A program made the position numbers and the translations under genes. Of a stretch of 43,103 bases of DNA, positions 8,629 to 43,103 are shown in pieces. How positions within the stretch are numbered: position 1 is the first letter of the stretch; every line of letters starts with the position of its first letter. The DNA is from a virus. The notes beneath the pieces are model-generated. The model was not told where the DNA came from and did not search any database. It worked only from the letters and a program-made list of their open reading frames with translations. The stretch spans positions 1 to 43,103 of the IMG/VR virus record IMGVR_UViG_3300027782_000148. One strand, given 5' to 3'.

Positions 8629-8629
8629 T

Positions 8630-9378: not shown

Positions 9379-9588
9379 AACCAGGAGGGGGTAGGTCTGG
9401 AAGGTGACGGAGTTTGGGGGGCCCGCTCCCCCATCCCCACTTTTTATTCAAAAACATTTCCCCCCCACTACTCATCCCAACTGTTTCAATAGAATTTAGG
9501 TATTACAAATCCTGTATATAAATTTTTTAGTCAAAATAATTCAAGGTTTATATGTGTAAGATATGCAATGTAGTAGTACAATTGTTAC

Positions 9589-10029: not shown

Positions 10030-10072
10030 AAGTTTTTTGGTTGCTACAATTCAGGCATTGCAAGGAGAATGT

Positions 10073-11064: not shown

Positions 11065-11065
11065 A

Positions 11066-11254: not shown

Positions 11255-11541
11255 CTACCAATTTTCAATCTGTCCAAGCGCCTAATCGTAAAGGCAACAT
11301 TGGCAAAATGGCTGCAAGCCATTCCACTGGTGTAACTGGCATTACAGGCCCCAAGCATGGTACTGCTACACCTAAAGGCAACCAAGGCGCTCCTGCTTAC
11401 GCTCGTGCAACAGATAACCAATCTGCTGGCGTTACTGGTGGTCGCAAGCAAAAGGTTATGGTCAGCACACACGCCGATTATTGTGGTCACATCATGAATG
11501 ATGGCTACATGAACAGTGACCGCAACAACTATCTCAAGTGA
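11251..11541 (+). CDS. 96-aa low-complexity hypothetical protein
   Basis: Starts MTTNFQSVQAPNRKG; Gly, Thr and Asn rich with repeated TGVTG-like steps (STGVTGITGPKHGTA, SAGVTGGRKQ) and a C-terminal HADYCGHIMNDGYMNSDRN. Probably flexible. No family recognised. Starts by ATGA overlap with the DUF6496-like gene. Confidence 0.55.
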   Translation: MTTNFQSVQAPNRKGNIGKMAASHSTGVTGITGPKHGTATPKGNQGAPAYARATDNQSAGVTGGRKQKVMVSTHADYCGHIMNDGYMNSDRNNYLK

Positions 11542-11548
11542 GGCCAAC

Positions 11549-11782
11549 ATGTCCGCATACGGTAAAGTAATCTCTGGCGGTACAGCCATGACTAATGGCC
11601 TTACCAAAGGCATTAACAAGAAATTGTCTGCATTTGCTGATAGCCACAAGCGTTCCGCAATGCTGGCTACTGCTGTTGGCAAAACCTTCAATCAGAATCC
11701 ATTATCTGATCCGCATCACAACGATGTGAACATGAACGCCAAGAAGAGCTTCACAACTCCTAAGTTGCCAAGCAAGGTTTGA
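11549..11782 (+). CDS. 77-aa hypothetical protein
   Basis: Start at 11549 (MSAYGKVISG) selected because a gtgagg site lies 5-8 nt upstream and the longer ORF overlaps the previous gene. Basic, helical middle (GINKKLSAFADSHKRSAMLATAVGKT) and a DPHHNDVNMNAKKS segment. Unknown role; part of the string of small genes between the terminase subunits. Confidence 0.55.
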   Translation: MSAYGKVISGGTAMTNGLTKGINKKLSAFADSHKRSAMLATAVGKTFNQNPLSDPHHNDVNMNAKKSFTTPKLPSKV

Positions 11783-23317: not shown

Positions 23318-23326
23318 GAGGCAAAT

Positions 23327-24547: not shown

Positions 24548-25416
24548 GTGGAATTTTTCAAGCTATGCTGGTGGCTACTTCTGCTGCCCCATCTACTTAC
24601 ACCATTGACTATCTTGTAGTTGCTGGCGGCGCTGCTGGCGGGTACAACGCTGGTTCTATATATAACGGCGCTGGTGGTGGTGGTGCAGGTGGGTATAGAG
24701 CAGTAACAAGCGTATCTGTAAATCCAAGCGTAGTCTATACAGCTACTATTGGCGGAGGCGGCGCTTCCGCTTCTGGTGCTGGCGCTAATGGCACAGATTC
24801 TTCTTTTATCGGCACTGGAGTTAGTACAACATCTACTGGGGGCGGTGGCGGCTCTGTTGGTAGTAGTATAGCGGGAAAAACTGGCGGTTCAGGCGGCGGC
24901 GGTGCTGGCAATGGTTCTGGCCCCGGAACATCAGTTGGTGGCGCAGGCAATACGCCATCTACATCCCCAAGTCAAGGTAATAATGGCGGCAACGGTCAGG
25001 GATATACTTACCCTTGCGGTTGCTGTTATGTTTGCGTTGATCGAGGCGGTGGTGGTGGTGGCGCTGGGGCAGTGGGCGGTGCAGCAGGGGGCGCAGGCGG
25101 TGCTGGTACAGCTTGGTCTGATGGGGTTACTTATGCTGGCGGAGGCGGCGCTGGTATATATTCTAATTCTGGAAGCGCGGGAGGCGCGGGAGGTGGGGGC
25201 GCAGGTGGAAGCCCAGCAATTGCTGGAACCGTTAACAAAGGCGGTGGCGGTGGCGGTGGTGGAGGTAATGCTAACGGTAGAGGTGGCGCAGGCGGCTCTG
25301 GTATTGTTATTGTCCGTTATGCTGGCACAACCCAAAAAGGAACAGGTGGAACTGTCACTACAGCGGGTGGATATACCTATCACACCTTTACATCTTCTGG
25401 GACGTATACAGCATGA
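24544..25416 (+). CDS. Glycine-rich putative receptor-binding protein
   Basis: 290 aa, of which Gly is by far the commonest residue. YLVVAGGAAGGYNAG (about 23-37) and a GGGGAGGYR element begin a glycine-rich domain (Gly_rich_2 type, by memory); polyglycine sandwiches are known from phage adhesins such as gp38-like tips. A unique CGCCYVC cluster lies near residues 159-165 and could form a disulphide or metal site. A C-terminal TVTTAGGYTYHTFTSSGTYT caps the fold, as in that family. Overlaps both neighbours. Probable fibre tip. Confidence 0.65.
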   Translation: MSGIFQAMLVATSAAPSTYTIDYLVVAGGAAGGYNAGSIYNGAGGGGAGGYRAVTSVSVNPSVVYTATIGGGGASASGAGANGTDSSFIGTGVSTTSTGGGGGSVGSSIAGKTGGSGGGGAGNGSGPGTSVGGAGNTPSTSPSQGNNGGNGQGYTYPCGCCYVCVDRGGGGGGAGAVGGAAGGAGGAGTAWSDGVTYAGGGGAGIYSNSGSAGGAGGGGAGGSPAIAGTVNKGGGGGGGGGNANGRGGAGGSGIVIVRYAGTTQKGTGGTVTTAGGYTYHTFTSSGTYTA

Positions 25417-28865: not shown

Positions 28866-31153
28866 TGCCATTCCTTCTTGACGGCGACCCATCATCTTCA
28901 GAAGTCTCTGAGGCAGTTAATTACCTGCTTAGCAATTACAACACAACCTATACAGCCAATTCTGTATCTGGTGAAATTTCAGGTCCTACAGGTCAAATTG
29001 TAGGTTATCTGTATAAATACATTGCTGTTAAATATGCGGATAGTTTTGATGGGTCTGTTAATTTTAGTAATACGCCAACAAATCGTCAGTATTACGGTAT
29101 TCGCAATACTAATAGTTCCACTGAATCAACAAACCCTGTCGATTATGTTTGGAGCAAAGTAACTGGTGGGTTTGGCACAACCAAGTTTTTGTTTTACAAA
29201 GTAAATGGTGGTCGGCAAATAGATTTTGCTGTAGGCACTATTGCTCCTGCTTATGCTTGGTTGCAAGATTCAGGTGCTGCTATTGACCTTGATGCTATAA
29301 GTGTTGTTATTACTGCAACGCCTATTATCTATCAGTGGACTGCATCATCTACCCCAGCTACTAGGCCAAGCACAACCACAACATATACTTGGTCTACAGG
29401 AACTTATACAGCACCTGCAGGTTGGTCTGTTGAAATTCCGTCCAATACAACGCCTGGCAATTATTTGTGGGCAATTGCCATTACCATTGTTCAAACTGGC
29501 GGTATTAATACAGCCACATTAGATTGGACAAATACTTCTTATCCAATTCGTTCTGTTGGTTATAACGGATCAAATGGGTCAACAGGCAATAGTTTTTTGT
29601 CTGCCTATAAAGCGCAAGACCAATCTCTTGCTGCCCCAACATTTACAACACCAACATCAAGTGCTATTGCGCCTACTGGATGGAGTTTAAGCACTCCGTC
29701 AGTATCTGTTGGGGAGGTTCTTTGGTATATCCAAGGTGAATACAACAGTTCGCCTACTTTAACAATTAATGGCGTAGGTCCAAACAGCACACGGTGGACG
29801 GGGCCAATTGCGGCAAGTGTTTTCCAAGACATCAGATCTGACAATTGGAATGGATCAAACCCCCCAACATTTGCTTCACCTGGCACTTGGGGAACTGCAG
29901 GATATTACATATCCAGATCCACTGGCACAATGATTTTGAATAATCTAGGTGCTCGTGGAACGCTACAGTCTGGTTCATCTCCTGCCATTAGTGGCACATC
30001 AATGACTGGTGCTGGTGCTGTAATCAATAATAGCGGTACGTTTGCTGTTGGCAATACTTCAAACAACATTTCTTATAACGGTTCTCAGCTCACATTGAAT
30101 GGAAATATTGTTGCCCTTGGGAATCTTCAGCAAGGTACATCCACTACTCAAAGTGGAAACACTTTTGGATATGGAAACGGAACAACCCTTTACGGCACTA
30201 ATGTTTGTGGATATTTCAGAAGTACAAATAGTGACACGGCAGGACTTGCTGCATCTGGTGTAAATAATATTGCATTTGCCGCAATTGGGGTAAATTCTTC
30301 AACCGCTTTATTTAGTAATACTCTTGGTTATGATACGGTTAGTCCTTATTATGTAATTTTAGGTGTAACTATTGGAGGCAACGGTGGCGGCTTTCAACAA
30401 GCTGCTTTCATGCAAAGGCGTGGGTATGGCGGTTCTGCAAGTGATTCAAACCCTGATGCTTATACAGAAGGATATGCTCGAATAGCTTATCTTGATGGAT
30501 CTACAACTTATGGTGGGAAGTTTATGACCACCAGCGGCACTACGGATGTGCGTGGCATTATTGCTGGTGGTGCAACAAACGGACTGTATGTATTGGGTGC
30601 TGGTGTTTCAACGGTTGGATTTACTCCATTTACCGGAATGCACCTTTGTTTGCTGCCAAATACAATAACCCCTGTTGCTGGTGACATTTACTACGACACT
30701 TCAATTTTCTTAAAGCCAAACGTCAACGATGTTTTGTCGTTTATTGCTCTTTCTAATGCACCTCAAATGAAAGGTGCAATTGGTGTGTTTACCAATATGG
30801 CTGAAGGATCTGTTCCTCAATATATGCAGACTACAATTGATGAGCCGTATATAGAGCATGGTGTAGAGCAAGTTAAAGTTGTTACCATTACCAAGCCAGA
30901 ATACAAAACAGTGCTTGAAGAAAACACCTTGGTGCTTGTCAATGCTTTGGGGGAAGGCTTAATTAATGTTTGCGGTGAAAATGGCAATCTTGTCGTGGGT
31001 GATTTGATTGTTACATCTTCTATACCTGGCAAGGGCATGAAGCAAAGCGATGACATAATAAGGTCAATTACTGTTGCCCGTAGCCGTGAAGCGGTGACGT
31101 TTTCATCACCAACAGATGTTCAGCAAGTAGCCTGCGTCTATCTTTGCGGTTAA
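28865..31153 (+). CDS. Large tail fibre or tailspike-like protein
   Basis: 762 aa. N-terminal half (1-340) beta-rich and Thr/Ser-rich (DGDPSSSEVSEAVNYLLSNY; several WT/WS repeats like YTWSTGTYTAPAGW). The middle has fibre-shaft-like ASN/Gly-rich repeats (LQSGSSPAISGTSMTGAGA, NNISYNGSQLTLNG) that look like trimeric beta-helix. The last about 140 residues (KVVTITKPEYKTVLEENTLV, GDLIVTSSIPGKGMKQSDD) resemble C-terminal domains in tail fibres that act as intramolecular chaperones or self-cleave. Host-binding is likely, hydrolase activity unproven. Confidence 0.65.
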   Translation: MPFLLDGDPSSSEVSEAVNYLLSNYNTTYTANSVSGEISGPTGQIVGYLYKYIAVKYADSFDGSVNFSNTPTNRQYYGIRNTNSSTESTNPVDYVWSKVTGGFGTTKFLFYKVNGGRQIDFAVGTIAPAYAWLQDSGAAIDLDAISVVITATPIIYQWTASSTPATRPSTTTTYTWSTGTYTAPAGWSVEIPSNTTPGNYLWAIAITIVQTGGINTATLDWTNTSYPIRSVGYNGSNGSTGNSFLSAYKAQDQSLAAPTFTTPTSSAIAPTGWSLSTPSVSVGEVLWYIQGEYNSSPTLTINGVGPNSTRWTGPIAASVFQDIRSDNWNGSNPPTFASPGTWGTAGYYISRSTGTMILNNLGARGTLQSGSSPAISGTSMTGAGAVINNSGTFAVGNTSNNISYNGSQLTLNGNIVALGNLQQGTSTTQSGNTFGYGNGTTLYGTNVCGYFRSTNSDTAGLAASGVNNIAFAAIGVNSSTALFSNTLGYDTVSPYYVILGVTIGGNGGGFQQAAFMQRRGYGGSASDSNPDAYTEGYARIAYLDGSTTYGGKFMTTSGTTDVRGIIAGGATNGLYVLGAGVSTVGFTPFTGMHLCLLPNTITPVAGDIYYDTSIFLKPNVNDVLSFIALSNAPQMKGAIGVFTNMAEGSVPQYMQTTIDEPYIEHGVEQVKVVTITKPEYKTVLEENTLVLVNALGEGLINVCGENGNLVVGDLIVTSSIPGKGMKQSDDIIRSITVARSREAVTFSSPTDVQQVACVYLCG

Positions 31154-31167
31154 TTTAAGGAAAAATT

Positions 31168-31953
31168 ATGGGAATGCAATATTCTTCTGTTCAAAGCCCT
31201 TATTCTTCTGCTTCTCAAGGCAAAGGACAAGGTCTGCCTAATCCTGAAGCGCAGATGTCACCTAATCCACCTCGCATGGATGCCCAGCAAGAAATGATGC
31301 GGAGATTTCCACAAAGTGGTGGAATTATGAAGCCTCAAAATATGATGCAAACGGGCGGATTTAAAGGCCCAATGGGTGATGGCTCTGTGCAGAGTACTGG
31401 CCCAAATGGCGAGATGACAGGCGGTATGCCTATGGTCGGCATGATGGGCGGTCCTGGCAGTTACGACAACTCCGGTATTAACCCTGGCGGCATGAGCAGA
31501 CCCGCAAAAGGAGTACCAAATTACAATGATGTTGTTGATCCTATGCATTCGCCTCAAACAGATTCAAGCGCTATTGGCATAGGCCCAAGCGATATGTTTA
31601 ACGATAGTCCTACTTATACCCCTGGTCCTGGCGGAGGTGGTCCAAACCCACCTATGGGCGGAGGTGGTCCAAACCCACCTTTTAACGGTGGTATGGGTAA
31701 TGTGTATAGGGGTGAAATGACGGGCGGTGCTCCTACGGGCGGTCTAATGTCCTATGGAAATACAGGTGTTGTAGGCCCCAATAAATCTCAAGGAAAAGGT
31801 ATGGGATCACAAGGTGCTATAACTTTTCCAAGTCAGGGCGGACAGCCTAAAATAGGTCAACCTAACGCCTACCCAAATACTATCAATTCAAGCGATAATA
31901 CGGGTATGTCTCAACCAAGGTCTTTTGGTGGCAAATCTAAAGGAGCAAGATAA
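31168..31953 (+). CDS. Gly/Pro/Met-rich low-complexity virion protein candidate
   Basis: 261 aa, almost devoid of predicted secondary structure: repeats of PNPPMGGGG / GGGGPNPPFNGG (about 155-178), a MPMVGMMGGPG patch and several SQGKG / QGG segments. No homologous domain recognised. Its place ahead of three repeat-rich proteins suggests a minor internal or flexible virion protein. aaggaaa site; stops at TAATG overlapping the next gene. Confidence 0.5.
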   Translation: MGMQYSSVQSPYSSASQGKGQGLPNPEAQMSPNPPRMDAQQEMMRRFPQSGGIMKPQNMMQTGGFKGPMGDGSVQSTGPNGEMTGGMPMVGMMGGPGSYDNSGINPGGMSRPAKGVPNYNDVVDPMHSPQTDSSAIGIGPSDMFNDSPTYTPGPGGGGPNPPMGGGGPNPPFNGGMGNVYRGEMTGGAPTGGLMSYGNTGVVGPNKSQGKGMGSQGAITFPSQGGQPKIGQPNAYPNTINSSDNTGMSQPRSFGGKSKGAR

Positions 31954-32897
31954 TGGGATTCGGAAAAGGTTCTGGTAGTTCTGCTCCTGTTGTAACGCAA
32001 GAGCAAAAAGATCTTCTTTCAGCGCAAACTGGGTTTTTAACAGGTACAGCGTTTCCAAAATACGCCGAAACCTTGGGTGGCGCCAAAGATGTAATGAATC
32101 AAGTAATGCCAAACGCTACTGCGGCTGCGGCTAATGCGGCTAATGTTGCCCAGCAAACAGGAGGCCTTCAACAAACAGCAGGTACTGCTGGCTTGGTAGG
32201 TGGCATGTCAGGCTTGCAAAATGCAGCAAAATATCAAAAAGACGTTGGTGAAATATTAGGTTCATCAGGGGCTGGCGGTCTTTATAACGCAGGCCAATAT
32301 CAAAAAAATGTTGGTGAAATATTAGGTGCAGAAGGCGCTTCAAAATTGGCGGGGTTGTTTTCGCCTGACTATGAAAAGCAACAAGTGGCTGCGGCATTGC
32401 AACCTGCTATGGAGCAGACTCGTGAAGCAATGGGCGGTCAAAACGCCTCATATGGCGCTGCTGGTGGTCTTGGATCTTCTCGTGCCGCATTGGCTCAAGC
32501 CAACCTGCAATCATTGAGTAATCAACGATTAGGTACTGTTGCCGCCCAAACTCAACAAGGCATTGAAGCAAATCGTTCTGCGGCAAGCCAAGCGTTGTTA
32601 ACTGCTGGCCAAAATGCTACCAATCAATCAGCAGGTTACCAACAGGCATTGTTGAACGCTGGTCAGAATGCTACAAATCAATCGGCGGGTTATCAACAAT
32701 CTTTAATGAATTCTGGCGCGTCAAATTTAAATGCCGCCAATCAAGCTGCTGCGGCTCGAATTGGTTATGCTGGTGCGCCTCAGGATGTGTACAGTAAATA
32801 CGCTTCTGTGATCTACGGCACACCCCAAGCTTCTACCACTCCCAACTTTGCTGGCACTCAAGGTCAAAATACCACAAGCAAGGGCTTTGGCTTTTAA
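31953..32897 (+). CDS. Putative DNA-ejection/internal virion protein with repeats
   Basis: 314 aa, Ala/Gly/Gln/Asn-rich and largely helical. Two internal repeat families: Y-Q-K-(D/N)-V-G-E-I-L-G at about 93-101 and 113-121, and QNATNQSAGYQQ twice at about 222-250. Amphipathic helices with few charges are typical for ejection proteins (P22 gp7/gp20-like) that leave the capsid with the DNA and cross the envelope. No known domain. aggag site. Confidence 0.5.
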   Translation: MGFGKGSGSSAPVVTQEQKDLLSAQTGFLTGTAFPKYAETLGGAKDVMNQVMPNATAAAANAANVAQQTGGLQQTAGTAGLVGGMSGLQNAAKYQKDVGEILGSSGAGGLYNAGQYQKNVGEILGAEGASKLAGLFSPDYEKQQVAAALQPAMEQTREAMGGQNASYGAAGGLGSSRAALAQANLQSLSNQRLGTVAAQTQQGIEANRSAASQALLTAGQNATNQSAGYQQALLNAGQNATNQSAGYQQSLMNSGASNLNAANQAAAARIGYAGAPQDVYSKYASVIYGTPQASTTPNFAGTQGQNTTSKGFGF

Positions 32898-32906
32898 GGA
32901 TTTAAT

Positions 32907-33536
32907 ATGGCAACTGAAGTTCCTTTTGGGCTCACTTTTGGCAACCCAAATAAATACATTGGGGGTAGTGGCGTTGGTCAGGCTGTTAAATCTGGATTAA
33001 CTGCTTATGCAATGCAAAAATCAGGATTAACTGGTTTTTTAAATGATTTAGGCAAAAAAACACCGGAAGGAAGCGTTCCTCCAATCACATCTGGTGCGGC
33101 TGGAGATATGAATACAAACGGCATTTGGGGTACAAACCCATTGCCTGTTCAGCCTCCAAATTTTGGTGGGCAGGCTTCTGAAGCAGCACCGGAAGCTAAT
33201 CCAAATGCAGGGGCTTTTACTGAACAAGCACAAAATCAGTTTAATTTGAATAAGAGCATGATTCCTAATTCAAATGGGATTGCTGGTGCTGTTGCTCCTG
33301 GTGTTGAAGTCACTCCAGTTACTGATAACTTTCCATCTGACATTGGGCATCAATTGCTTAATGGCAATGATGATTGGCAACATAGTGCTGTTGACCCTCA
33401 AGCACAACGAGATTCATTAGTTTTGCCACAACAACAAACCGTTGAAGCTCCTCGGTTAACTGGCAATGAATACCAACAAGTTCCTGGTTATGGCTCTGCT
33501 AAAAAAGCAGCTATGGCGATGTTTGGAATGGGATAA
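32907..33536 (+). CDS. 209-aa putative ejection-complex protein
   Basis: Starts MATEVPFGLTFGNPNK; Gly/Asn/Gln/Ala/Pro-rich with hydrophobic N-terminal stretches (VGQAVKSGLTAYAMQKSGLTGFL) and a short Lys/Ala end (SAKKAAMAMFGMG). No family. Composition and position between two ejection-like proteins suggest a virion role, with low certainty. Confidence 0.45.
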   Translation: MATEVPFGLTFGNPNKYIGGSGVGQAVKSGLTAYAMQKSGLTGFLNDLGKKTPEGSVPPITSGAAGDMNTNGIWGTNPLPVQPPNFGGQASEAAPEANPNAGAFTEQAQNQFNLNKSMIPNSNGIAGAVAPGVEVTPVTDNFPSDIGHQLLNGNDDWQHSAVDPQAQRDSLVLPQQQTVEAPRLTGNEYQQVPGYGSAKKAAMAMFGMG

Positions 33537-33545
33537 GGAAAAACT

Positions 33546-35138
33546 ATGCCTGATGATATGCAACCTCAAGCACCAGTAGGTGCTGTGCCCCCCCAAATGC
33601 CTCCTCAGGGCAATCCTTCTGCGCCTATTGATATTGTTAAGACATCGCCAAACCCAAATGCTTTAGCTGATGATGCAATTGAGCGTAGGGATACTGGTGC
33701 TTTGACGCAGATTGCCAAAGACAATATTGGTACACCTGCATCTGATTTAGCTATGCGTATGGCTAAAGGAATTAATGAAAAGCAAACTAGGTTTAATGAA
33801 CTTGTTAAGCCAATAGATAAAGCTGGTGGTTTTGGAACTCCTGAAGGCAATATAAAGATTGCTCAGACATTCCAAACTGTTGCCGACAATCCACAGTGGG
33901 GCACTGCCCTATTGAAGTACGTCATGGGCGACAAAGCTGGCGCTGTTAAGCAAGTCACTGGTGGCGACATCAAGACATTGATTACTTATGACAATGGTGG
34001 TAATCAAATTGAAGAAAAAGTTAATGAGCTGGGTGAACCAGTTTCATACACTGATCGCAAAACTGGCTTGCCAATAAGCAAAGATGAGTATGCCCAACGT
34101 GTGGGCGGCATATCTCAATGGGCTAATACTTTGAAAGGTGAAACTGAAAAGGCAACTCGTGCTGAAAGCACTAAGTTTTTTGTTAAAGAAGAAGCGCAAG
34201 CCAATAACTGGTATCAATTAACTCAAGCACACAAGCCGTTGCTTCAGGAAACCTACAACACTTTAAACACATACAAAACAGATCTTCCTAAAGAGCTTTA
34301 CAACAAGATTCTTGGTTCTGTTAGCCAATCAATGGGGCAAGCTAGTAGCAAATCCAACAGCAAAGCTTCTTTAAATCAATTAACTGATGGTCTTGCTAGT
34401 GGTGAAAGCGTCAAAGTTGACAATAGGATGGCAACCGCTTTAGGAGTTCCTAGATTGGCGGGCATGAAATTGGAAGTAAAGGGTGACCGCCTTGTCAGTG
34501 AAGATAAAAGTTTTAGCATATCTAAAAATCAACTTAAACAATTGCAAGAAAGTGATACTGTTGGATCTGAAGCTACTAAGAATGCCACAAGCACAATGGC
34601 AAGCATTGCAGAAGCAGAGCGTTTGGGTTTAATTAGCTCGGTTGCTGGCGGCAAATTGCGTAGGGTTGTTGAAAACGGTCAACAAATGGGCAGAGAACTT
34701 GATGAGGCTACCAGAGAGTTTGGTAAGCCTTCTATCATTTCATTGCCAACATCAGCATCCTTTATTGACAAACAAGCACAAACCCTTGCTCAGACCCTAC
34801 AAGGCTTGCAAAACGCTGACCAGATGAGCGAGTACGTCAAATTCCGTAACCGTGCTGTAGATGGTCATAAAGCCACCAATACAGTCCCGTTACCAGGTGA
34901 AATTGGTTCTGCTTATTCTCGTCAAGAGTTACCTAAAGAGATCCGCAGATTTTATGGCGATGAGATTACCAAAGTAATGGACGATGAAAACACCGCTCGT
35001 AAAGAATTTAATAATATTGGGGTAAGATTTCCTAATGCTGTTCAACAGCCCAACAAGGCAATTGTTCCTCCTGCAAAACAAGAAGCAAAGAAAGAACGTC
35101 CTTCTTTGGCAGATCTTAGAAAACAAGCTGGAGGTTAA
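33546..35138 (+). CDS. 530-aa putative internal virion protein
   Basis: Starts MPDDMQPQAPVGAVPPQ (Pro-rich head), then a long helical protein with charged and polar residues (KGINEKQTRFNELVKPIDK, PKELYNKILGSVSQSM, LKQLQESDTVGSEATKN) and a Lys/Pro tail (PPAKQEAKKERPSLADLRKQ). No enzymatic motif, no transglycosylase signature. Probably an ejection or internal head protein by position; its length matches the large ejection proteins of P22-like phages. aaggaaa site. Confidence 0.5.
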   Translation: MPDDMQPQAPVGAVPPQMPPQGNPSAPIDIVKTSPNPNALADDAIERRDTGALTQIAKDNIGTPASDLAMRMAKGINEKQTRFNELVKPIDKAGGFGTPEGNIKIAQTFQTVADNPQWGTALLKYVMGDKAGAVKQVTGGDIKTLITYDNGGNQIEEKVNELGEPVSYTDRKTGLPISKDEYAQRVGGISQWANTLKGETEKATRAESTKFFVKEEAQANNWYQLTQAHKPLLQETYNTLNTYKTDLPKELYNKILGSVSQSMGQASSKSNSKASLNQLTDGLASGESVKVDNRMATALGVPRLAGMKLEVKGDRLVSEDKSFSISKNQLKQLQESDTVGSEATKNATSTMASIAEAERLGLISSVAGGKLRRVVENGQQMGRELDEATREFGKPSIISLPTSASFIDKQAQTLAQTLQGLQNADQMSEYVKFRNRAVDGHKATNTVPLPGEIGSAYSRQELPKEIRRFYGDEITKVMDDENTARKEFNNIGVRFPNAVQQPNKAIVPPAKQEAKKERPSLADLRKQAGG

Positions 35139-36568
35139 TGATGGCTTTTGATGAAGCAAAATATCGTGCTGCTGCCAAGGCCGCTGGTTATTCGGACGAT
35201 GAGATTGATTCTGAATTAGGCACTAAACCTATAGCGGCATCTGCACCACCGCCAACTGAAACATTTTCTGATGCTACGGCAAAAGCTAGAGCAGAATACG
35301 ATGCCAAAGTGCATAAAATGCTTAACACCAACGTTACTGTTGGCGATCAAACTTTTGAGATCCCAAGCTTTTTTACATCACCCGCTGGTATTGTTACCGC
35401 CGCTGGTGCTGGCATTGGTTTGGGGGCAACTATTTTGGGGGCTGCTGTTGCCGCTCCTAAGGCTTATAACGCCATCAAAGACCGTTGGATAAGCAAGGCT
35501 CCTGCTATTGATCGTACTGTAGACATTCCTTTTGAAGGACCAAAACCTACATTGAATGCCAAAGCCGCTGCCCCTGCAGCAAATGCCATTTCTGAATGGG
35601 ATGCAATTATTGCTCAAAGTGAGCAAAACAAAGCCGCCAAAGCCGCCGATGCCGCAGCTAAACAAGGCAAACCTATTATTGAGGCCCCTATCGTTGGCGT
35701 GATGCCTTCTGGCGCTCCAGCAACGCCTATCCCTATGCCTCCTCCACCACCGCCACCGCCACCTGTCAACATGACACAAGCAGTAGCTGAAGGTGGAAAT
35801 GTTGGTCAAGAATTGAAAAAGATTGTTGCTCAAGAGCTAGATCAAGCTGTTGCACCTATGGGCGCTGTCCCGCCACCTATGGCACAAGCTGCCGCCCCAC
35901 AAGCCGTACCGCCTCAAGAGTTGCGTACAGGCACTGGTAAACCTGCATTTGCTGGTCAAGGTCCTGAACCAACAATTTCAAGCCGCACCAATAAACCTCA
36001 GTTTAAAGATGTTTATAAAGATGTAAGTCAAGTGCCCACAGGTTTTGCTTTTGTTCCTAACGCCCAATACATTGACATTCCTCGTCAGGATCTTGGACAA
36101 GCTGAATATACAAAAGCTTATTCCGGTCGAGATTTTCCTGCCACCAATGAGCTGGCCCGTGAGCAATCCAAAGACATTAACCGCACATTAGGCCGTGCCA
36201 CAAGGGAAGAAGCCAAGCTTGCTGGTTTGCCACCTGCTGAAGTTACGCCTGGTATTACTAAAATGACCACTGCTGGCAAAAAGCGTGTGACTGTGGGTGG
36301 TGCTTTGGGTGCTTTGGTGGCTTTGCCTGAACTGGCAAATGCCGCTTCTGAAGCTGGTCAAGGTAATGCCGCTCCTGCCCGTGAGCTTGGTTTTGACTTT
36401 GGTACGGGTGCTTTGTTGGCTAAATTGTTTGGTGGCCCTGCTGCCGCTGCTGGCGCTCTTGCACTTGGCTCTTCTAGTTTGAATGCTGACGAACAAGATC
36501 AACTTAACTATCGCCGCAAAATCGGTGCTGGTCGTGGCATTGCTCCTCCTTCTGCATACTTCAGGTAA
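35138..36568 (+). CDS. Membrane-segment-bearing putative ejection protein
   Basis: 476 aa; starts 35138 (TAATG overlap) or 35141 (better spacing to the ggagg site). Hydrophobic segments at about 85-110 (GIVTAAGAGIGLGATILGAAVAAP) and 385-402 (VGGALGALVALPELANA) and about 424-450, an octaproline-type run (about 200-213), Ala/Pro-rich linkers and basic patches. Ejection proteins that form a channel through the host envelope show this mixture. The Pro run is coded with biased but not identical codons. No known domain found. Confidence 0.5.
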   Translation: MMAFDEAKYRAAAKAAGYSDDEIDSELGTKPIAASAPPPTETFSDATAKARAEYDAKVHKMLNTNVTVGDQTFEIPSFFTSPAGIVTAAGAGIGLGATILGAAVAAPKAYNAIKDRWISKAPAIDRTVDIPFEGPKPTLNAKAAAPAANAISEWDAIIAQSEQNKAAKAADAAAKQGKPIIEAPIVGVMPSGAPATPIPMPPPPPPPPPVNMTQAVAEGGNVGQELKKIVAQELDQAVAPMGAVPPPMAQAAAPQAVPPQELRTGTGKPAFAGQGPEPTISSRTNKPQFKDVYKDVSQVPTGFAFVPNAQYIDIPRQDLGQAEYTKAYSGRDFPATNELAREQSKDINRTLGRATREEAKLAGLPPAEVTPGITKMTTAGKKRVTVGGALGALVALPELANAASEAGQGNAAPARELGFDFGTGALLAKLFGGPAAAAGALALGSSSLNADEQDQLNYRRKIGAGRGIAPPSAYFR

Positions 36569-36571
36569 ATC

Positions 36572-36805
36572 ATGGAATATCAATCTCTTATAAACACTGG
36601 CGCTGGCATTGTTTTTACAGTGGCAGGGTGGTTTTGCCGTGAAATGTGGACTGCTGTCAAAGATTTGAAATCAGACCTTGCTAAACTGCGTGAGGAACTT
36701 CCTAAGACCTACGTTACCCGTGATGACAGCCGTGAAGACATTCGTGAAATCAAAGAAATGCTAGGCAAAATATTTGATAAGTTAGACGGCAAAGCAGATA
36801 AATGA
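36572..36805 (+). CDS. 77-aa membrane-anchored coiled-coil protein, lysis cassette
   Basis: Starts MEYQSLINTGAGIVF; one N-terminal transmembrane span (about 6-24) followed by coiled coil (TAVKDLKSDLAKLREELPK, REIKEMLGKIFDKLDG). This is the typical shape of XhlA-like or spanin/holin-accessory proteins. Its start is 4 nt after the ejection protein, and its stop overlaps the 41-aa gene (ATGA). Likely lysis function, subtype unknown. Confidence 0.55.
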   Translation: MEYQSLINTGAGIVFTVAGWFCREMWTAVKDLKSDLAKLREELPKTYVTRDDSREDIREIKEMLGKIFDKLDGKADK

Positions 36806-36927
36806 TTGCTGTTGTTCTGGCGCTGGTGATCAGCACAGAACATAGATGTGTTAGGTGGGCTTGGACAGGGGATGTATACCATCGCATAGTTTGGTGTTTG
36901 GAATGGAAAAAGGTTGAAAAAAAATGA
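36802..36927 (+). CDS. 41-aa hypothetical protein in lysis cassette
   Basis: Starts MIAVVLALVISTEHR with one short hydrophobic N-terminus, then RCVRWAWTGDVYHRIVWC and a Lys-rich end. Both boundaries are ATGA overlaps, so it is inserted cleanly between lysis genes. Two Cys are present but there is no lipobox at the hydrophobic end, so it is not a convincing outer-membrane spanin. Found by reading frame continuity below the usual length limit. Confidence 0.55.
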   Translation: MIAVVLALVISTEHRCVRWAWTGDVYHRIVWCLEWKKVEKK

Positions 36928-37412
36928 TCGACCCTATTACCATAGGCGCGGCATTTGCAATAGCTAAAAGCACTATTGCAGGGGTCAAAGAAGCCATTCA
37001 GATGGGTAAAGACTTGCAGGAATGCAGTGGTGACCTCATCAAGTTTTTTGAGATGCGAGATACAGTAGCAAAGGCTGCTGTACACGATAAGAAAAAAGCA
37101 AAGTCTGACATGGGACAGGCTTTAGACACTGTGATGCAAGCCAAAGCCTTGCGTGATGCCGAAAGAGAACTAAAAGAAAAGTTAATTTGGTCAGGCCAAG
37201 GTGATGTGTGGGAGGCTATTCAAGCCGAGTACAACATGGTGGTGGCTAATCGCAAGCGTGAAGAACGTGAAGCAGAGGCCAAAGCCAAGTTAAAGCGTGA
37301 GAACTTGGCAGAGACGGTAAACATTTTGCTAATTGGATTTGTTTCTATTCTTGCCGCTGGGTTTATTGGCTGGGGAACTTTTGAATTTATCATGTACAAA
37401 CTAAGGAATTGA
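36924..37412 (+). CDS. 162-aa membrane-associated lysis-region protein
   Basis: N-terminal hydrophobic helix (PITIGAAFAIAKSTIAGVKE, about 4-23), long helical charged middle (AERELKEKLIWSG; KREEREAEAKAKLKREN), then a C-terminal transmembrane span VNILLIGFVSILAAGFIGW (about 131-149). Inverse orientation to classical i-spanins. Place between the 41-aa gene and holin suggests a lysis accessory; its exact role is uncertain. Confidence 0.5.
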   Translation: MIDPITIGAAFAIAKSTIAGVKEAIQMGKDLQECSGDLIKFFEMRDTVAKAAVHDKKKAKSDMGQALDTVMQAKALRDAERELKEKLIWSGQGDVWEAIQAEYNMVVANRKREEREAEAKAKLKRENLAETVNILLIGFVSILAAGFIGWGTFEFIMYKLRN

Positions 37413-37413
37413 T

Positions 37414-37908
37414 ATGGATTGGTTAAAGACCATTGCACCCACTATTGCAACAGCCCTTGGTGGGCCTCTAGCGGGGCTTGCTATTGAGGCGGTAAGCAAG
37501 GCCATTGGCATAGACCCAAAGGACGTTCAAAGCACAATCAGCGAGGGCAAGTTATCTGCTGACCAGATCATGCTGCTTAAACAAGCTGAAGTCCAAATGG
37601 CGGCTCGTGCTCAAGAAATGGGTTTGGACTTCGCAAAGTTGTCCAATGAGGACAGAAAGTCTGCTCGTGATATGCAAGTGGCTACTAAAAGTTATTTGCC
37701 CCCTGCCCTTGCTATTGGGGTTACTATTGGTTTCTTTGGCATTCTAGGTGGCCTTATGTACGGTCAGATACAACACGCTCCCCAGATTGACATCATGCTT
37801 GGCAGTTTAGGTACTGCTTGGACAGGCATCATCGCTTTCTATTTTGGCTCATCTGCTGGCTCACAAGCTAAAGATAATTTGCTTCACCAATCTACTCCCA
37901 CATCATGA
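37414..37908 (+). CDS. Putative holin
   Basis: 164 aa with an aagga site. N-terminal hydrophobic APTIATALGGPLAGLAIEAV (about 8-27), an amphipathic helix region (KLSADQIMLLKQAEVQMAARAQEMGLD), then two strong membrane spans (ALAIGVTIGFFGILGGLMYG and SLGTAWTGIIAFYFGSSAG). The end FYFGSSAGSQAKDNLL is typical of one phage holin group. It lies immediately before the endolysin, with ATGA overlap. Holins form inner-membrane pores that time lysis. Confidence 0.75.
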   Translation: MDWLKTIAPTIATALGGPLAGLAIEAVSKAIGIDPKDVQSTISEGKLSADQIMLLKQAEVQMAARAQEMGLDFAKLSNEDRKSARDMQVATKSYLPPALAIGVTIGFFGILGGLMYGQIQHAPQIDIMLGSLGTAWTGIIAFYFGSSAGSQAKDNLLHQSTPTS

Positions 37909-38414
37909 ATCAAAACTTTGACAAAGCATTAGCTGCGGTCCTTGTTCACGAGGGAGGTTACGTTTTTAACCCAAAAGATCCTGGGGGGGAAACAAACCTT
38001 GGCTGTACAAAAGCAGTCTGGGAAGAGCATTGTGGTCACATGGTAGACACCAAAACAATGAAAGCCTTGACACCTGCTGATGTTGGCCCACTTTACAAAA
38101 CAAAGTATTGGGACAAAGTCAAAGGTGATGACCTGCCTAGCGGAGTTGATTACGTTGTCTTTGATGCGGCTATCAATTCAGGCCCAAGTCGTGCGGCAAA
38201 GTGGCTTCAGGCTTGTGTAAACGTGTACGCAGATGGCATTATTGGCAACATGACAATACAAGCTGTACGAAATAAAGACCCTAAAGAACTTATCAACGAT
38301 TACTGTGCATACCGTTTAGCCTATCTCAAAATGCTTCAAACATGGCAAACATTTGGTAAGGGCTGGGAGCGCAGGGTAAAAGAAGTAAACGCAACAGCGT
38401 TATCAATGTCATAA
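37905..38414 (+). CDS. Endolysin, GH108-type lysozyme
   Basis: 169 aa. The N-terminal signature VLVHEGGYVFNPKDPGGETNLG, with the catalytic Glu (E16) in HEGGY, is diagnostic for glycoside hydrolase family 108 muramidases. The C-terminal part (AAINSGPSRAAKWLQACVNVYADG, residues about 90-113) matches the peptidoglycan-binding half of these proteins. No signal peptide, so it needs the holin upstream. Coupled to it by ATGA. Confidence 0.9.
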   Translation: MNQNFDKALAAVLVHEGGYVFNPKDPGGETNLGCTKAVWEEHCGHMVDTKTMKALTPADVGPLYKTKYWDKVKGDDLPSGVDYVVFDAAINSGPSRAAKWLQACVNVYADGIIGNMTIQAVRNKDPKELINDYCAYRLAYLKMLQTWQTFGKGWERRVKEVNATALSMS

Positions 38415-38424
38415 CGGCGTCACA

Positions 38425-38862
38425 GTGAGCGTTTTCAATACGCTCATGCTTAAACGTGTAGACATTCGCAAACAATCAAGTCAGGACAAATTGTCACGAC
38501 TTCAAAAAGTTTGCTTGCCTTATGACCAACCAATTGACACAAATTTTGGATCTTGGTGGATTGCTACTGAGAATGGCGTGGATATTGGTTTTGCGGGGCT
38601 TGTGCGTACTGTGTCTTGGACCGATTGCGGTTATCTGTGTCGTGCAGGCGTTATTCCTGATGCTCGTGGACAAGGACTACAGAAAAAGCTTATTAATGTC
38701 AGAGTCCGACAGGCAAAAGCTCTTGGGTGGAACTGGGTCATAACTGATACAACAGATAATCCAGCGTCAGCTAACAGTTTGATTGCCACAGGTTTCAAAT
38801 TGTTTCAACCAACAAAACCTTGGGGTTTCAAAAACACGCTTTATTGGCGTAGGAAATTATGA
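38425..38862 (+). CDS. GNAT-family acetyltransferase
   Basis: 145 aa from a GTG start (38425); an ATG at 38446 (MLKRVDIRKQ) is equally possible. The acetyl-CoA loop is visible as AGVIPDARGQGLQKKLI (about 72-88; R-G-Q-G-L), followed by helix VRQAKALGWNWVI and NPASANSLIATGFKLF, the classical GNAT C-terminal pattern. Between the GTG and ATG is an inverted repeat TGAGCG/CGCTCA, which could block one start. Substrate unknown; follows lysis genes. Confidence 0.75.
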   Translation: MSVFNTLMLKRVDIRKQSSQDKLSRLQKVCLPYDQPIDTNFGSWWIATENGVDIGFAGLVRTVSWTDCGYLCRAGVIPDARGQGLQKKLINVRVRQAKALGWNWVITDTTDNPASANSLIATGFKLFQPTKPWGFKNTLYWRRKL

Positions 38863-39839
38863 TGCCAGTAAAAATATTTTCTGACCAACAAATAATCAGC
38901 GCCATTGAAAATAGCGCATCAATGTCTCAAGCAGGTTTAGCCCTTGGCATGACTTTATCGGGCCTAAACAAACGCCGTAGACGCATTGAGCAAAGAGAAA
39001 AAATAGAAATAAGAGCGCCTCAAGCCACCAAACAATTTGAGCATCTGCAAATAGCTCACATACATCCAACTAAAAAAGACCTTGGCATCTTAAATGGCAC
39101 AGTTATTGTCTTTAGTGACGCTCATTTTTGGCCTGGGGTGTATACAACAGCATTTAAGGGTCTTTTGTGGGCGATCAAAGAACTTAAGCCTAAGGCAGTT
39201 ATTGCAAATGGAGATATTTTTGACGGGGCAGGTATCAGTCGGCATCCACGCATTGGGTGGGCCAAAGCTCCATCAGTGATGGATGAACTCAAAGCCTGTA
39301 CCATCTCGATGGGATACATTGAAGAAGCCGCCAAAGAGGCCCGTCACAACGTCAAACTGGTCTGGCCCTTGGGTAACCACGATGCACGGTTTGAAACCTT
39401 TCTAGCAGCCAATGCGCCTCAGTATGAGCATATCAAAGGGTTTACTTTGCGTGACCACTTTCCAAGATGGGAGCCTTGCTGGGCGGTTTGGATGAATGAC
39501 AACACCGTGGTTAAACACCGATTTAAGGGCGGGATCCATGCTACCCATAACAACACCATGTGGTCAGGAAAGAACATAGTTACAGGCCACCTGCATAGCC
39601 TAAAGGTTACGCCATTCAGCGACTATAACGGGGTGCGTTACGGCATTGATACGGGTACTTTGGCTGAACCCTACGGTCCACAGTTTGAAGACTATACCGA
39701 ACAAGGTCCATTAAACTGGCGTAGTGGCTTTGCTGTACTGACTTTTGTTGATGGGAATTTGATATTGCCTGAACTGGTAACAACACACGGCCCCGACTCC
39801 ATTGAGTTTAGAGGCCGTGTGATTAAAGTTACTCTGTAG
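38859..39839 (+). CDS. Calcineurin-like metallophosphoesterase with N-terminal helix-turn-helix-like segment
   Basis: 326 aa from 38859 (ATGA overlap; 38862 nearly equivalent). Motifs: SDAH (86-89), NGDIFDG (117-123), GNHDAR (172-177), HATHNN (227-232), GHLHS (243-247), the complete order of a metal-dependent phosphoesterase. Residues 10-45 (IISAIENSASMSQAGLALGM, then LNKRRRRIEQRE) look like a helix-turn-helix plus basic region that may bind nucleic acid. Last rightward gene; its stop meets the convergent 78-aa gene. Probably a nuclease or phosphatase acting on DNA, RNA or nucleotides. Confidence 0.8.
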   Translation: MMPVKIFSDQQIISAIENSASMSQAGLALGMTLSGLNKRRRRIEQREKIEIRAPQATKQFEHLQIAHIHPTKKDLGILNGTVIVFSDAHFWPGVYTTAFKGLLWAIKELKPKAVIANGDIFDGAGISRHPRIGWAKAPSVMDELKACTISMGYIEEAAKEARHNVKLVWPLGNHDARFETFLAANAPQYEHIKGFTLRDHFPRWEPCWAVWMNDNTVVKHRFKGGIHATHNNTMWSGKNIVTGHLHSLKVTPFSDYNGVRYGIDTGTLAEPYGPQFEDYTEQGPLNWRSGFAVLTFVDGNLILPELVTTHGPDSIEFRGRVIKVTL

Positions 39840-40065
39840 CAACTGCTTCTTCAGCAACTTCTTCTTCAGCAACTGCTTCTTCTTCAGTCTCTTCTTCGCC
39901 GTCTTCATCTTCTTCAGAATCAACTGCGTCCCAGTTACCGATCCAGCCAGCTTCCTCTTGGAATTCAACAAATTCCTTCAAAGCTTCAATCATGTCAAAG
40001 TCATGAGTTTCAACAATCATTTTGCCATTGCCCAACCAACCTAGTGTCATTTCAAATTTAAACAT
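39829..40065 (-). CDS. 78-aa acidic protein, end of the leftward operon
   Basis: Starts MFKFEMTLGWLGNGKM with an aggagc site. The first 45 residues look globular; the C-terminal half is an acidic, low-complexity tail (EEDEDGEEETEEEAVAEEE) coded by near-repeated gaagaa / gcaact units. It overlaps the convergent metallophosphoesterase by 11 nt. No family; the charge resembles DNA-mimic or chaperone tails, without proof. Confidence 0.6.
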   Translation of the reverse strand: MFKFEMTLGWLGNGKMIVETHDFDMIEALKEFVEFQEEAGWIGNWDAVDSEEDEDGEEETEEEAVAEEEVAEEAVATE

Positions 40066-40075
40066 GCTTGCTCCT

Positions 40076-40097
40076 AATGCAGCGGGATTGCTGCATT
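40076..40097 (-). promoter_or_regulatory. Hairpin in the leader of the 78-aa gene
   Basis: AATGCAGC and GCTGCATT, perfect 8-bp arms with a 6-nt loop. Read leftward, the AGGAG of the 78-aa gene follows directly after the stem. No T tract, so a translation-control or mRNA-processing hairpin is more likely than a terminator. Confidence 0.55.
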
Positions 40098-40133
40098 TGC
40101 TATCCTAAATGCTGAAAATGACGGTTGCAAGAC

Positions 40134-40436
40134 TTACTCTTTAATAAACAAGCCATTGGGCATTAACGTGCCCTTGCGATTCTTAATCTGGTCGTATGCC
40201 ACCTGCATACAGTGAACCAAACTAATATCTTTCAAAGCGCAATAGTTAATTAAGCAAACCATTACATCGCCTACAGAATCAGCAATGTTTTCACGGTCAT
40301 TCTTAATTGTTGCATCGCACAACTCCCCAATTTCACTAACCGCCTTCAGTAATTGAATTTCTGGGGTGCTGTTGGGGATGATTTTTCTGGCTTCTGACCA
40401 GCGTAGGATGTCAATTTCTATTTCTGCATAGCTCAC
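40134..40436 (-). CDS. MazG-like nucleotide pyrophosphohydrolase (right variant)
   Basis: 100 aa, full-length. Motif SEIGELCDATIK (about 34-45) followed by ADSVGDVMVCLINYC (about 52-66) is the E-x-x-E / D-x-x-x-D metal-binding pattern of MazG-type enzymes; the end IKNRKGTLMPNGLFIKE also fits the phage subgroup. It likely removes aberrant (d)NTPs or lowers alarmone levels during infection. Start is GTG (40436) overlapping the stop of the 48-aa gene; the corresponding base in the left variant gives ATG. Confidence 0.75.
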   Translation of the reverse strand: MSYAEIEIDILRWSEARKIIPNSTPEIQLLKAVSEIGELCDATIKNDRENIADSVGDVMVCLINYCALKDISLVHCMQVAYDQIKNRKGTLMPNGLFIKE

Positions 40437-40579
40437 TGAGTAACCTCTGGAGTTTGTTGTTGTATCTTGACTTGGCCTTCAATCTTTTGCATCAGTACAA
40501 AAGCACCTGATTTTGTGGGCAGTTCACCCAGTACTTGCAAGATAAAGTTGATTTCGTTTGGTTCAAAGTTAATATTCAT
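40433..40579 (-). CDS. 48-aa hypothetical protein, right variant only
   Basis: Starts MNINFEPNEINFILQVL and continues GELPTKSGAFVLMQKIEGQV. This NxNFExNExNxILQxLGELPTKSG pattern is one I know from many aquatic and other phages, function unknown. Stop and next GTG overlap (GTGA), and its own start overlaps the next gene. In the left variant about 140 bp including this gene are missing and the flanking genes join directly. Confidence 0.7.
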   Translation of the reverse strand: MNINFEPNEINFILQVLGELPTKSGAFVLMQKIEGQVKIQQQTPEVTQ

Positions 40580-40884
40580 TGTTTTTCCTTTAAGCGCCAT
40601 TCACGCTCATTACGGTTTGAGTTTGATTTAACGTAATTTCCAGTTAACTCAATAAGGTGGAGTTTACCCATCTCACCGAGCCTTCGTGATACTTGGTGAC
40701 CAATTAAATTACATCTAGAGGCTATCCCGTCTTTTCCAAGAGGACCATGCTTTTCCAAGCAATCTAAGATGATTTCAAAATGCTCACTAGCAAAGTCAAC
40801 CTTATCGGCTGCCTCAAAAGAAGTGATGGGATTATCATTTCTTACTCTTGGGAACATGTGTTGAAGTATTGAATTGAAGTTCAT
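40576..40884 (-). CDS. Small winged-helix-like phage protein (right variant)
   Basis: 102 aa, starting MNFNSILQHMF at 40884; a longer ORF begins further upstream but MN(L/F)NSI is the start shared with the other variant (105-413). Same winged-helix-like order (HFEIILDCLEKHGPLGKDGIA, QVSRRLGEMGKLHLIEL). The recognition region differs most (RCNLIGHQVS versus RTFLDGNQVA), which could mean different DNA targets between variants. Confidence 0.7.
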   Translation of the reverse strand: MNFNSILQHMFPRVRNDNPITSFEAADKVDFASEHFEIILDCLEKHGPLGKDGIASRCNLIGHQVSRRLGEMGKLHLIELTGNYVKSNSNRNEREWRLKEKQ

Positions 40885-40985
40885 GTTTGCTTTCATTAAG
40901 GTGGCAGACATTAACCCAAAAGGATGGTCTGCCAGCACCCCCTTTTCCCCAGGATTGGGCTGGGTTATTCAGAATGTTCTGAGCA
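40885..40985. other. Remnant site of the lost membrane-protein gene
   Basis: Aligns in position with 414-611 of the left variant but lacks the 55-aa gene except for its last few codons (ttattcagaatgttc). An inverted repeat GGCAGAC/GTCTGCC (about 40902-40932) sits here. No gene is supported. Probably a deletion scar or the ancestral state before insertion. Confidence 0.55.
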
Positions 40986-41240
40986 TTAAAAGTCTAAATC
41001 ATCAAATGGGTCTGGTTTAGCCTTCTTAGTTGGCTGGCTAGATTGACGGGTTTGATCTTGTTTAGGCCGTACTGACAAGCTGATAAAGCCTGAACCCGCC
41101 TTACTGACCTTCTTCCAACCAGATATCCAGTATTCCACACCTTCAATATTAATTGAGCCGTTCATATCAGGGTGCTTTTCCTCTTCCTTTTTGTCGTTTT
41201 TAAACAACGAACCCCTGTTTGTATTGTCAAATTCAGCCAT
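40986..41240 (-). CDS. Conserved 84-aa phage protein next to ERF (right variant)
   Basis: Same protein as 612-866 with two differences (D for E and T for I in the RPKQ-x-Q-x-RQSS segment). Overlaps the ERF gene by 8 nt here too. Near-identity here, compared with the strongly diverged winged-helix gene only 100 nt away, shows a sharply uneven divergence along the locus, as expected from recombination among related phages or from different selective pressure. Confidence 0.75.
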   Translation of the reverse strand: MAEFDNTNRGSLFKNDKKEEEKHPDMNGSINIEGVEYWISGWKKVSKAGSGFISLSVRPKQDQTRQSSQPTKKAKPDPFDDLDF

Positions 41241-41868
41241 TTTTTACTTTCTTTAAAGCACTACGGGTAGGTGCATCCATTTGATTAGAGAGATAGACTT
41301 TTTGGTCTGCCTCCAGTTGTTGTTCATCAATCATGGCAAGAGCATCAATAGCCTTACCATTCTTGACCAACTCGGTAACGGAGAATGCCATTTCTTGCAA
41401 GAACTCCTTAATTTCTGTTGGCAGGTCATCACCAATACCGCCCCTTGGAGATATTACTGGTCCAGATCCTTTGACCTTCATGCCTTCATCTGTTTTAGGA
41501 GATGAGTCAATCGCATCGTGCTCAACGATTTCAAGGGCAGCAACCCACAAATACCTTCGCAGGTAGGTCTGTACCGCCCCAAGGTTTTGGACCTCATGAC
41601 AGCCCTTTAAAGCCGCTGTAGACATGGGGCTGGTGATAATGATCCTGTCTTCTGGCTTCTCAATGTTGATGATGCTCATACTTGCTTCATCTTTGCCGAA
41701 ACTGACAATCCCTGCCAAGCCTACATCTTTGAAGATCTGTAGTGCTGGGATCAGAAAATCACCAAGTTCAAAGTAGTAATAGTTAGCAAACTTGTTGTGG
41801 CCTGTTTTTTTGAGCTTAGAGCTGTGAAAGGTTTCACGGGCCAAGTTTAATTTATTGTAAACGTTCAT
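41233..41868 (-). CDS. erf: ERF-family single-strand annealing protein (right variant)
   Basis: 211 aa, same length as the left copy. GAVQTYLRRYLW and EIVEHDAID are fully conserved; variation clusters at residues 46-80 and in the linker around 126-155. Upstream it is overlapped (ATGA) directly by the 58-aa gene since the 69-aa gene is absent. If both copies belonged to one genome, it would carry two annealing proteins. Confidence 0.85.
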   Translation of the reverse strand: MNVYNKLNLARETFHSSKLKKTGHNKFANYYYFELGDFLIPALQIFKDVGLAGIVSFGKDEASMSIINIEKPEDRIIITSPMSTAALKGCHEVQNLGAVQTYLRRYLWVAALEIVEHDAIDSSPKTDEGMKVKGSGPVISPRGGIGDDLPTEIKEFLQEMAFSVTELVKNGKAIDALAMIDEQQLEADQKVYLSNQMDAPTRSALKKVKNG

Positions 41869-42041
41869 AATTTTTCAGTGATGTATTGGATCAAGTCATC
41901 CATTGCTAACTTAGAAGCAGTGGTTTGAGGTGTTTTCTCCAATGCCCTATACAGAGCCAAAGAGATACCTTGCAAGATTTCAATCTCATTTAAGAGATCT
42001 TGCTTGCTTTTTTTGTTCATTTTTGCCCCTGGTGTTCTCAT
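41865..42041 (-). CDS. 58-aa hypothetical protein (right variant)
   Basis: Starts MRTPGAKMNKKSKQD and ends IQYITEKL; same length as the left copy (1697-1873) but clearly diverged in sequence while keeping KSKQDL, LY and AMDD. This pattern of equal length and replaced residues confirms it is translated. ATGA junctions at both ends. Confidence 0.6.
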   Translation of the reverse strand: MRTPGAKMNKKSKQDLLNEIEILQGISLALYRALEKTPQTTASKLAMDDLIQYITEKL

Positions 42042-42226
42042 TTTGTTGAATCCTCGTAGAGTTTCATTTCTTCAGCAATAAACTTGGTTTGATTCTCTTC
42101 AGTAAGCTCACGAAAAGCCTCATCCGTCATCATTTCTTCCCGTAATTGCTCAACAAAGTCTTTCATTTTTGACATTTCATATTCCTCTTGCATTTGGACT
42201 TGGTAATAGAAAGCTTCTTGTGTCAT
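42038..42226 (-). CDS. 62-aa acidic helical protein (right variant)
   Basis: Counterpart of 1870-2058, three residues different. Preceded by a gggag site (agcgagggagag) not present in the other copy, because here the upstream neighbour is the 70-aa gene rather than the basic 50-aa gene. Function unknown. Confidence 0.65.
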   Translation of the reverse strand: MTQEAFYYQVQMQEEYEMSKMKDFVEQLREEMMTDEAFRELTEENQTKFIAEEMKLYEDSTK

Positions 42227-42435
42227 CTCTCCCTCGCTTTCAGCATGGCATCTGCGTACTGGTACGCCTTGCCGCCTACAAATTCAAGCGTGGTTGTAAA
42301 ACGATTGTCAGCGCGACAAATGATGGCTTCCATCGCTTTAGCCGCAAAGTAATCGCGCAGGGTCATGCCGTTGTATTGGATTAATTCTTTTGGTCGGTCA
42401 ACAATCAAAACCGGAAATGCTGGTGGGTTGTTCAT
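42223..42435 (-). CDS. 70-aa phage protein, right variant only
   Basis: Starts MNNPPAFPVLIVDRP, then QYNGMTLRDYFAAKAMEAI and a C-terminal AYQYADAMLKARE. The G-MTLRDYFAAKAM pattern belongs to a very common small phage protein family of unknown function. Complete ATGA overlaps on both sides. The left variant lacks the gene entirely: its two neighbours overlap each other directly. Confidence 0.75.
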   Translation of the reverse strand: MNNPPAFPVLIVDRPKELIQYNGMTLRDYFAAKAMEAIICRADNRFTTTLEFVGGKAYQYADAMLKARER

Positions 42436-42587
42436 TGCTTACGCTCCACTGGTTTAGAGATCAGCCAGTTATCCCCCAGAAAGCGCACAGAACGCACCCA
42501 AGAGCGCATATTGTGGCGTTGGGTACTGGTAGGCACTCCTTGCACGATGAAGAGCCTACGGGCCATTTGAAGGGCAGTAACGTTCAT
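42432..42587 (-). CDS. 51-aa basic hypothetical protein (right variant)
   Basis: Counterpart of 2055-2207 (starts MNVTALQMARRLFIV), one codon longer at the end (VERKQ). TSTQRHNMRSWVRSV is unchanged. Overlaps the 70-aa gene downstream and the 56-aa gene upstream by ATGA. Confidence 0.65.
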   Translation of the reverse strand: MNVTALQMARRLFIVQGVPTSTQRHNMRSWVRSVRFLGDNWLISKPVERKQ

Positions 42588-42754
42588 TTGATCTCCAAGT
42601 TTTCTTTGTCATCAGAAACCAAAGTAATTTCGTACCAAGTGTTTTTGTTGTCTTCTACCCGTAAAGTTTTTGTGTAAAAGACTGTGCCGTCTTCTCTTTT
42701 GATGGCGTTAGTGAATTGCTTGATTGATGCAACACGGTGTATTGAGATGTTCAT
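42584..42754 (-). CDS. 56-aa hypothetical protein, right variant only
   Basis: Start at 42754 (MNISIHRVASIKQFT) selected because an aagga site precedes it; a longer ORF crosses the control region. Beta-rich (AIKREDGTVFYTKTLRV, WYEITLVSDD). Occupies the slot of the unrelated 59-aa gene of the left variant (2204-2383), as first gene of the leftward operon. No family recognised. Confidence 0.6.
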   Translation of the reverse strand: MNISIHRVASIKQFTNAIKREDGTVFYTKTLRVEDNKNTWYEITLVSDDKENLEIK

Positions 42755-42768
42755 TTGTGTTCCTTTAT

Positions 42769-42839
42769 TTACTGCGTTAGTGCAGTAAGATGAACTGTAA
42801 ACCCCTTTTTTAAAGAAAAACATAGGGGTTTTCACCTAT
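42769..42839. promoter_or_regulatory. Divergent control region (right variant)
   Basis: Equivalent of 2402-2470. TTACTGC-6-GCAGTAA is perfect here (42769-42788), better than in the left copy, and AAACCCCT-17-AGGGGTTT is kept (42799-42806/42824-42831). The following gggttttcccta of the left copy is gggttttcaccta here, so that third element is less constrained. Conservation of arms against changed spacers supports a binding role. Confidence 0.55.
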
Positions 42840-42873
42840 AGAACAACACTTTTTTTAGTGCTAGGCTCACCAT

Positions 42874-43068
42874 ATGAGCCACCTACACCACACCCAAATT
42901 GAAGCTACTATTGCATGGACATTGATTGCCCAAGCAGTTGACCAGCTTGAAACACAAGTTCAACATGAAGACCTAGATGCCGCCATAATTGCGGTTCTGG
43001 CTCTCGCACTTGAGCTTGCTTCCCACAAAAAACTACGGTCAATAGATGAAATCTTCCAGCCCCTTTAA
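42874..43068 (+). CDS. 64-aa helical hypothetical protein (right variant)
   Basis: Same as 2505-2699 except Leu for Ile at position 4 (MSHLHH). Silent changes elsewhere show constraint on protein. Unknown function. Confidence 0.65.
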   Translation: MSHLHHTQIEATIAWTLIAQAVDQLETQVQHEDLDAAIIAVLALALELASHKKLRSIDEIFQPL

Positions 43069-43103
43069 TTGGCAATCCCAACCCTCAACCCTGTTTAGCA
43101 AGC
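43046..43103 (+). CDS. 51-aa hypothetical protein, 5' part only
   Basis: First 19 codons (MKSSSPFNWQSQPSTL...) of the gene that is complete at 2677-2832. Cut by the right window edge. The last base of the window corresponds to base 2734 of the left copy, so joining the ends would restore the gene. Confidence 0.6.
   Translation, partial: MKSSSPFNWQSQPSTLFSK

Follow-up and report, generated by a model that had tools for sequence, protein, structure and literature searches.

The diverged ends of a 43.1-kb phage record are alleles of one site in what is very probably a circular genome of about 40.3 kb

The IMG/VR virus record IMGVR_UViG_3300027782_000148, the whole of which (43,103 bases) constitutes the window analysed here, carries at its two ends diverged versions of an ERF/SSB early locus, and the two versions are allelic: they belong to a single site and do not represent separate loci within the same genome. 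We hold with high confidence that the record represents the complete circular-map genome of a tailed phage, about 40,328 bp long, together with about 2.8 kb from the allele of a co-occurring strain. The end overlap is an ordinary assembly overlap rather than a duplicated gene set, and in other contigs each version occurs at the same site and in single copy.

Self-blastn and alignment established that the opening 2,734 bases and the final 2,775 are homologous, in the same orientation and collinear, with a period of 40,328, a figure that agrees with the genome sizes of relatives (about 40-42 kb). The original prediction had been that 1-2734 aligns with 40329-43103, and this is borne out by six collinear plus-strand blocks of 83-99% identity:

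Block 1: 1-107 with 40329-40435, plus strand, 99.1%
Block 2: 105-429 with 40576-40899, plus strand, 82.8%
Block 3: 612-1475 with 40986-41849, plus strand, 86.6%
Block 4: 1691-2061 with 41859-42229, plus strand, 83.6%
Block 5: 2059-2207 with 42439-42587, plus strand, 94.6%
Block 6: 2379-2734 with 42750-43103, plus strand, 94.4% (E about 1e-155)

Since the left segment has no match in window 2735-40328, a chance origin of the end homology is excluded. Exact runs of 77 and 119 bases are shared at the left and right ends, respectively; the former fits a common SPAdes k value, the latter is no standard k, and no conclusion rests on these lengths. The ends were also predicted to differ in substitutions and gene content, and they do: seven gene pairs are common to the two versions (the phrog_1123 gene, the single-strand DNA-binding protein SSB, ERF and four small ORFs), and each side has three private small ORFs. 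The main features are as follows:

1-2734: MazG/ERF early locus, left allele (L), continuing from 40328 of the 40,328-base circle
40329-43103: the same early locus, right allele (R), which comes from the second strain and is a redundant overhang beyond the circle
1-107, minus strand: MazG-like 5' fragment, truncated where the contig begins; identity to 40329-40435 is 99%
40134-40436, minus strand: complete MazG-like nucleotide pyrophosphohydrolase, 100 aa (PHROG 1992/715, Pfam MazG)
105-413, minus strand: phrog_1123 gene, L version, 73.5% amino acid identity to the R version
40576-40938, minus strand: phrog_1123 gene, R version (PHROG match)
612-866, minus strand: SSB, L version, 84 aa, 97.6% identical to the R version
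40986-41240, minus strand: SSB, R version (sequence match)
859-1494, minus strand: ERF single-strand annealing protein, L version, 211 aa (Pfam ERF, PHROG 155)
41233-41868, minus strand: ERF single-strand annealing protein, R version, 86.7% amino acid identity to L
444-611, minus strand: L-only ORF, 55 aa (alignment of the ends, as for the next five)
1491-1700, minus strand: L-only ORF, 69 aa
2204-2383, minus strand: L-only ORF, 59 aa
40433-40600, minus strand: R-only ORF, 55 aa
42223-42435, minus strand: R-only ORF, 70 aa
42584-42835, minus strand: R-only ORF, 83 aa
2677-2832, plus strand: 51-aa ORF, full-length on the left; the record ends inside its right-hand counterpart

As had been anticipated, the right end breaks off inside a gene that is complete on the left, with 43103 corresponding to 2734. 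The suggestion that a genome might hold two MazG-like genes did not survive, the left one being only a 107-base 5' fragment; the record lacks two complete MazG-like genes because the contig starts inside the left gene, of which the first 107 bases are kept. Both ERF/SSB versions are intact, functional and under purifying selection (dN 0.093 and dS 0.658 for ERF; dN 0.010 and dS 0.602 for SSB), but dN/dS does not separate the possible readings of the record. The alleles agree well over the intergenic stretch 2384-2504 / 42750-42873, which separates divergent genes (within the block at 2379-2734, 94%), but not in the genes immediately upstream, a pattern such as a shared early control region might produce.

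The evidence that the two versions occupy one site comes from independent contigs. An exact pattern composed of window 40311-40328 followed by left-specific sequence was found in exactly one contig, IMGVR_UViG_3300009180_001807 (L230), which over its full 4,045 bases reads as window 36738-40328 followed directly by 1-454, ungapped and with 4 substitutions (99.9%), whereas its alignment to the right version breaks at 40435. Thus, in a strain almost identical to this one, the left version occupies precisely the site that holds the right version in the window. For the other flank, the 9,220-bp contig L008 covers 37403 to 43101, its ERF region being of R type (98%), and runs unbroken into 2735-4519; the 31,112-bp contig L011 has a single L-type locus, flanked by homologues of 28928-38218 on one side and of 3242-11589 on the other. 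Both flank joins are therefore seen in independent contigs, 40328 to 1 in L230 and 43103 to 2735 in L008 and L011. No single contig found combines the exact right allele with the window's sequence from 2735 onward at strain-level identity; the best contig for that join is L008, at about 90% over the junction-spanning stretch. A pattern combining the last private SNP of R with the sequence from 2735 onward matched in the L011 contig, which means that the alleles also mix at that SNP. A further contig, L010 (IMGVR_UViG_3300042691_008646), is a mosaic, with a left-type MazG/phrog_1123 junction and an ERF nearer the right version, indicating that segments of the locus recombine among strains, as alleles do. 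With contigs joining each allele to the window's opposite flanks, the reading originally favoured, in which the genome is circular or permuted, measures about 40.3 kb and ran into a second strain variant during assembly, is supported.

The alternative put forward at the same time was a true diverged duplication, in which a single genome of more than 43.1 kb would hold two ERF/SSB loci. Such a duplication would fit an assembled contig that contains both versions, and intact versions under purifying selection are also possible under it. However, exactly one ERF match was present in each of 80 related loci, and when 41 records of 36-45 kb were searched, the 28 that matched had one ERF each, including the circular record MW202484, so that no relative with two ERF genes was found among the 80 loci and 28 records. 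(Further metallophosphoesterase-bearing contigs yielded no ERF, but this is uninformative, since several are fragments and one of them, L230, ends before ERF.) In a maximum-likelihood tree of ERF, the window's left copy pairs with L011 (100/90) and its right copy groups with L008, L009 and L010 (100/98); a lineage-specific duplication would be expected to have left two copies in at least some of these relatives' genomes. Moreover, L230 places the left version at the right version's site in a 99.9% identical background, and the limits of the copies coincide exactly with the contig ends, a coincidence that a duplication does not call for. The duplication, rejected on the ERF counts in near-full-length relatives and on the ERF tree, is in our estimation very improbable.

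Two other readings concern the physical ends of the molecule, and they bear on what was seen when the contig ends of 30 near-full-length relatives were compared. Exact end overlaps of 55-127 bp, often 123 or 127, were present in 14 of the 30; non-identical overlaps of 188 bp to about 3.3 kb in seven (at least 300 bp long in five); and none in the remaining nine. The exact overlaps are of the kind of length that assembler k-mers leave, on the principle described in PMC10914622. The non-identical overlaps are:

G021: 193 bp, 99.5%
G028: 188 bp, 98.4%
G040: 574 bp, 96.7%
G047: 1760 bp, 96.4%
G024: 607 bp, 91.8%
G034: 317 bp, 85.8%
G014 (IMGVR_UViG_3300017978_000301; L177, L178), 45,482 bp: about 3.3 kb, diverged (71-79%), with the first 55 bases exact

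The extra length of G014 is likely redundant. A further contig, IMGVR_UViG_3300027741_000110 (45,850 bp; L235, L246, L292, L293), in which the first 1.9 kb recurs 7.8 kb before the end at 85.5%, is probably also an over-long circular assembly. The ends of the relatives' contigs are scattered round the map and lie in different genes, so these phages have a circular map, and the ERF locus is not the place of a fixed terminus.

Direct terminal repeats at a fixed position, since diverged, would also place homologous segments at both contig ends. Terminal repeat copies are held identical by replication, though, and the ends of the window are only 83-99% identical; in addition, L008 and L011 cross the locus without an end. 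With the mapped ends of relatives scattered and contigs crossing the site, this explanation was rejected, and its probability is close to nil. A terminal-redundancy heterozygote, of the type known in circularly permuted phages such as T4, comes closer in form: two different alleles stand at the ends of a redundant molecule, as in the contig. Here, a mixed infection would have produced a headful-packaged molecule whose two ends carry alleles from different strains, and the contig would be a real molecule of about 107% of genome length, in keeping with its 106.9% of the period. Yet the relatives' non-identical overlaps vary over the range listed above, reaching 7.8 kb in the one further contig, and do not take one headful value; and heterozygosity of the T4 kind is a property of single packaged molecules, whereas the window is a population assembly, which is no record of single molecules. 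We regard this reading as highly unlikely, and put equally little weight on the corresponding biological route, by which co-infecting strains would form recombined mixed concatemers and, from these, headful virions whose two ends differ in their ERF-locus allele. Were such virions to exist, single particles would carry both early modules.

A circular genome assembled past its origin, the reading we prefer, would come about in a simple way. Two strains, presumably both in this contig's own sample, would share near-identical edges of the ERF/SSB early locus and be diverged inside it. The path through the assembly graph can be envisioned as starting in the left allele, completing one round of the circle, re-entering the locus via the shared MazG sequence to follow the other strain's allele, and halting where the paths of both strains merge again. 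Each real genome would then have a single copy of the locus.

Assemblers are described as breaking where multiple paths exist, which leaves shared sequences at contig ends (PMC10914622, COBRA), and in one genome curation case, the closing region existed in two variants, either of which closes the circle, their non-uniqueness having ended the original assembly (PMC7111523). The cause proposed here is the same as in the latter, in that two variants of one region ended the assembly; the difference from both published cases is that here the contig itself holds both variants, one per end. Because the ends carry two different variants, an exact end-repeat test misses this circle.

The closest phage record found, Podoviridae sp. 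isolate ctfne034 (MW202484), is circular and 41,762 bp long. It resembles the window in its terminase-portal-capsid block (74.5% nucleotide identity) and in carrying a single ERF/SSB locus, along with a MazG-like gene that bears the label ntP-ppase; unlike the window, it is a complete circle in which the locus is single-copy, and identity is low outside the structural block. It was the only match in the phage DNA search, at 72-75%, and is too distant to inform on the alleles.

Several other features of the window may be recorded. The portal protein at 14416-16602 matches Pfam SU10_portal (E 3e-54), despite a genome of only about 40 kb. Tail-fibre-like genes at 21650-24547 contain internal diverged repeats (22065-22550, 23720-24174; 70-75% between units), and the first of these genes has matches to collagen-like and tail-fibre PHROGs. 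An exact 23-base inverted repeat occurs at 25243-25265 and 35741-35763, about 10.5 kb apart.

Of this record, window 1-40328 is the part to use as the genome, and 40329-43103 is best kept alongside it as an alternative allele. Taken at face value, the apparent presence of two copies would distort gene counts per genome as well as estimates of genome length and circularity; once the record is read as circular, about 40.3 kb long and with two alternative alleles, the anomaly disappears. More broadly, testing for collinear but non-identical end overlaps would reveal circular phage genomes that exact-repeat tests label as linear.
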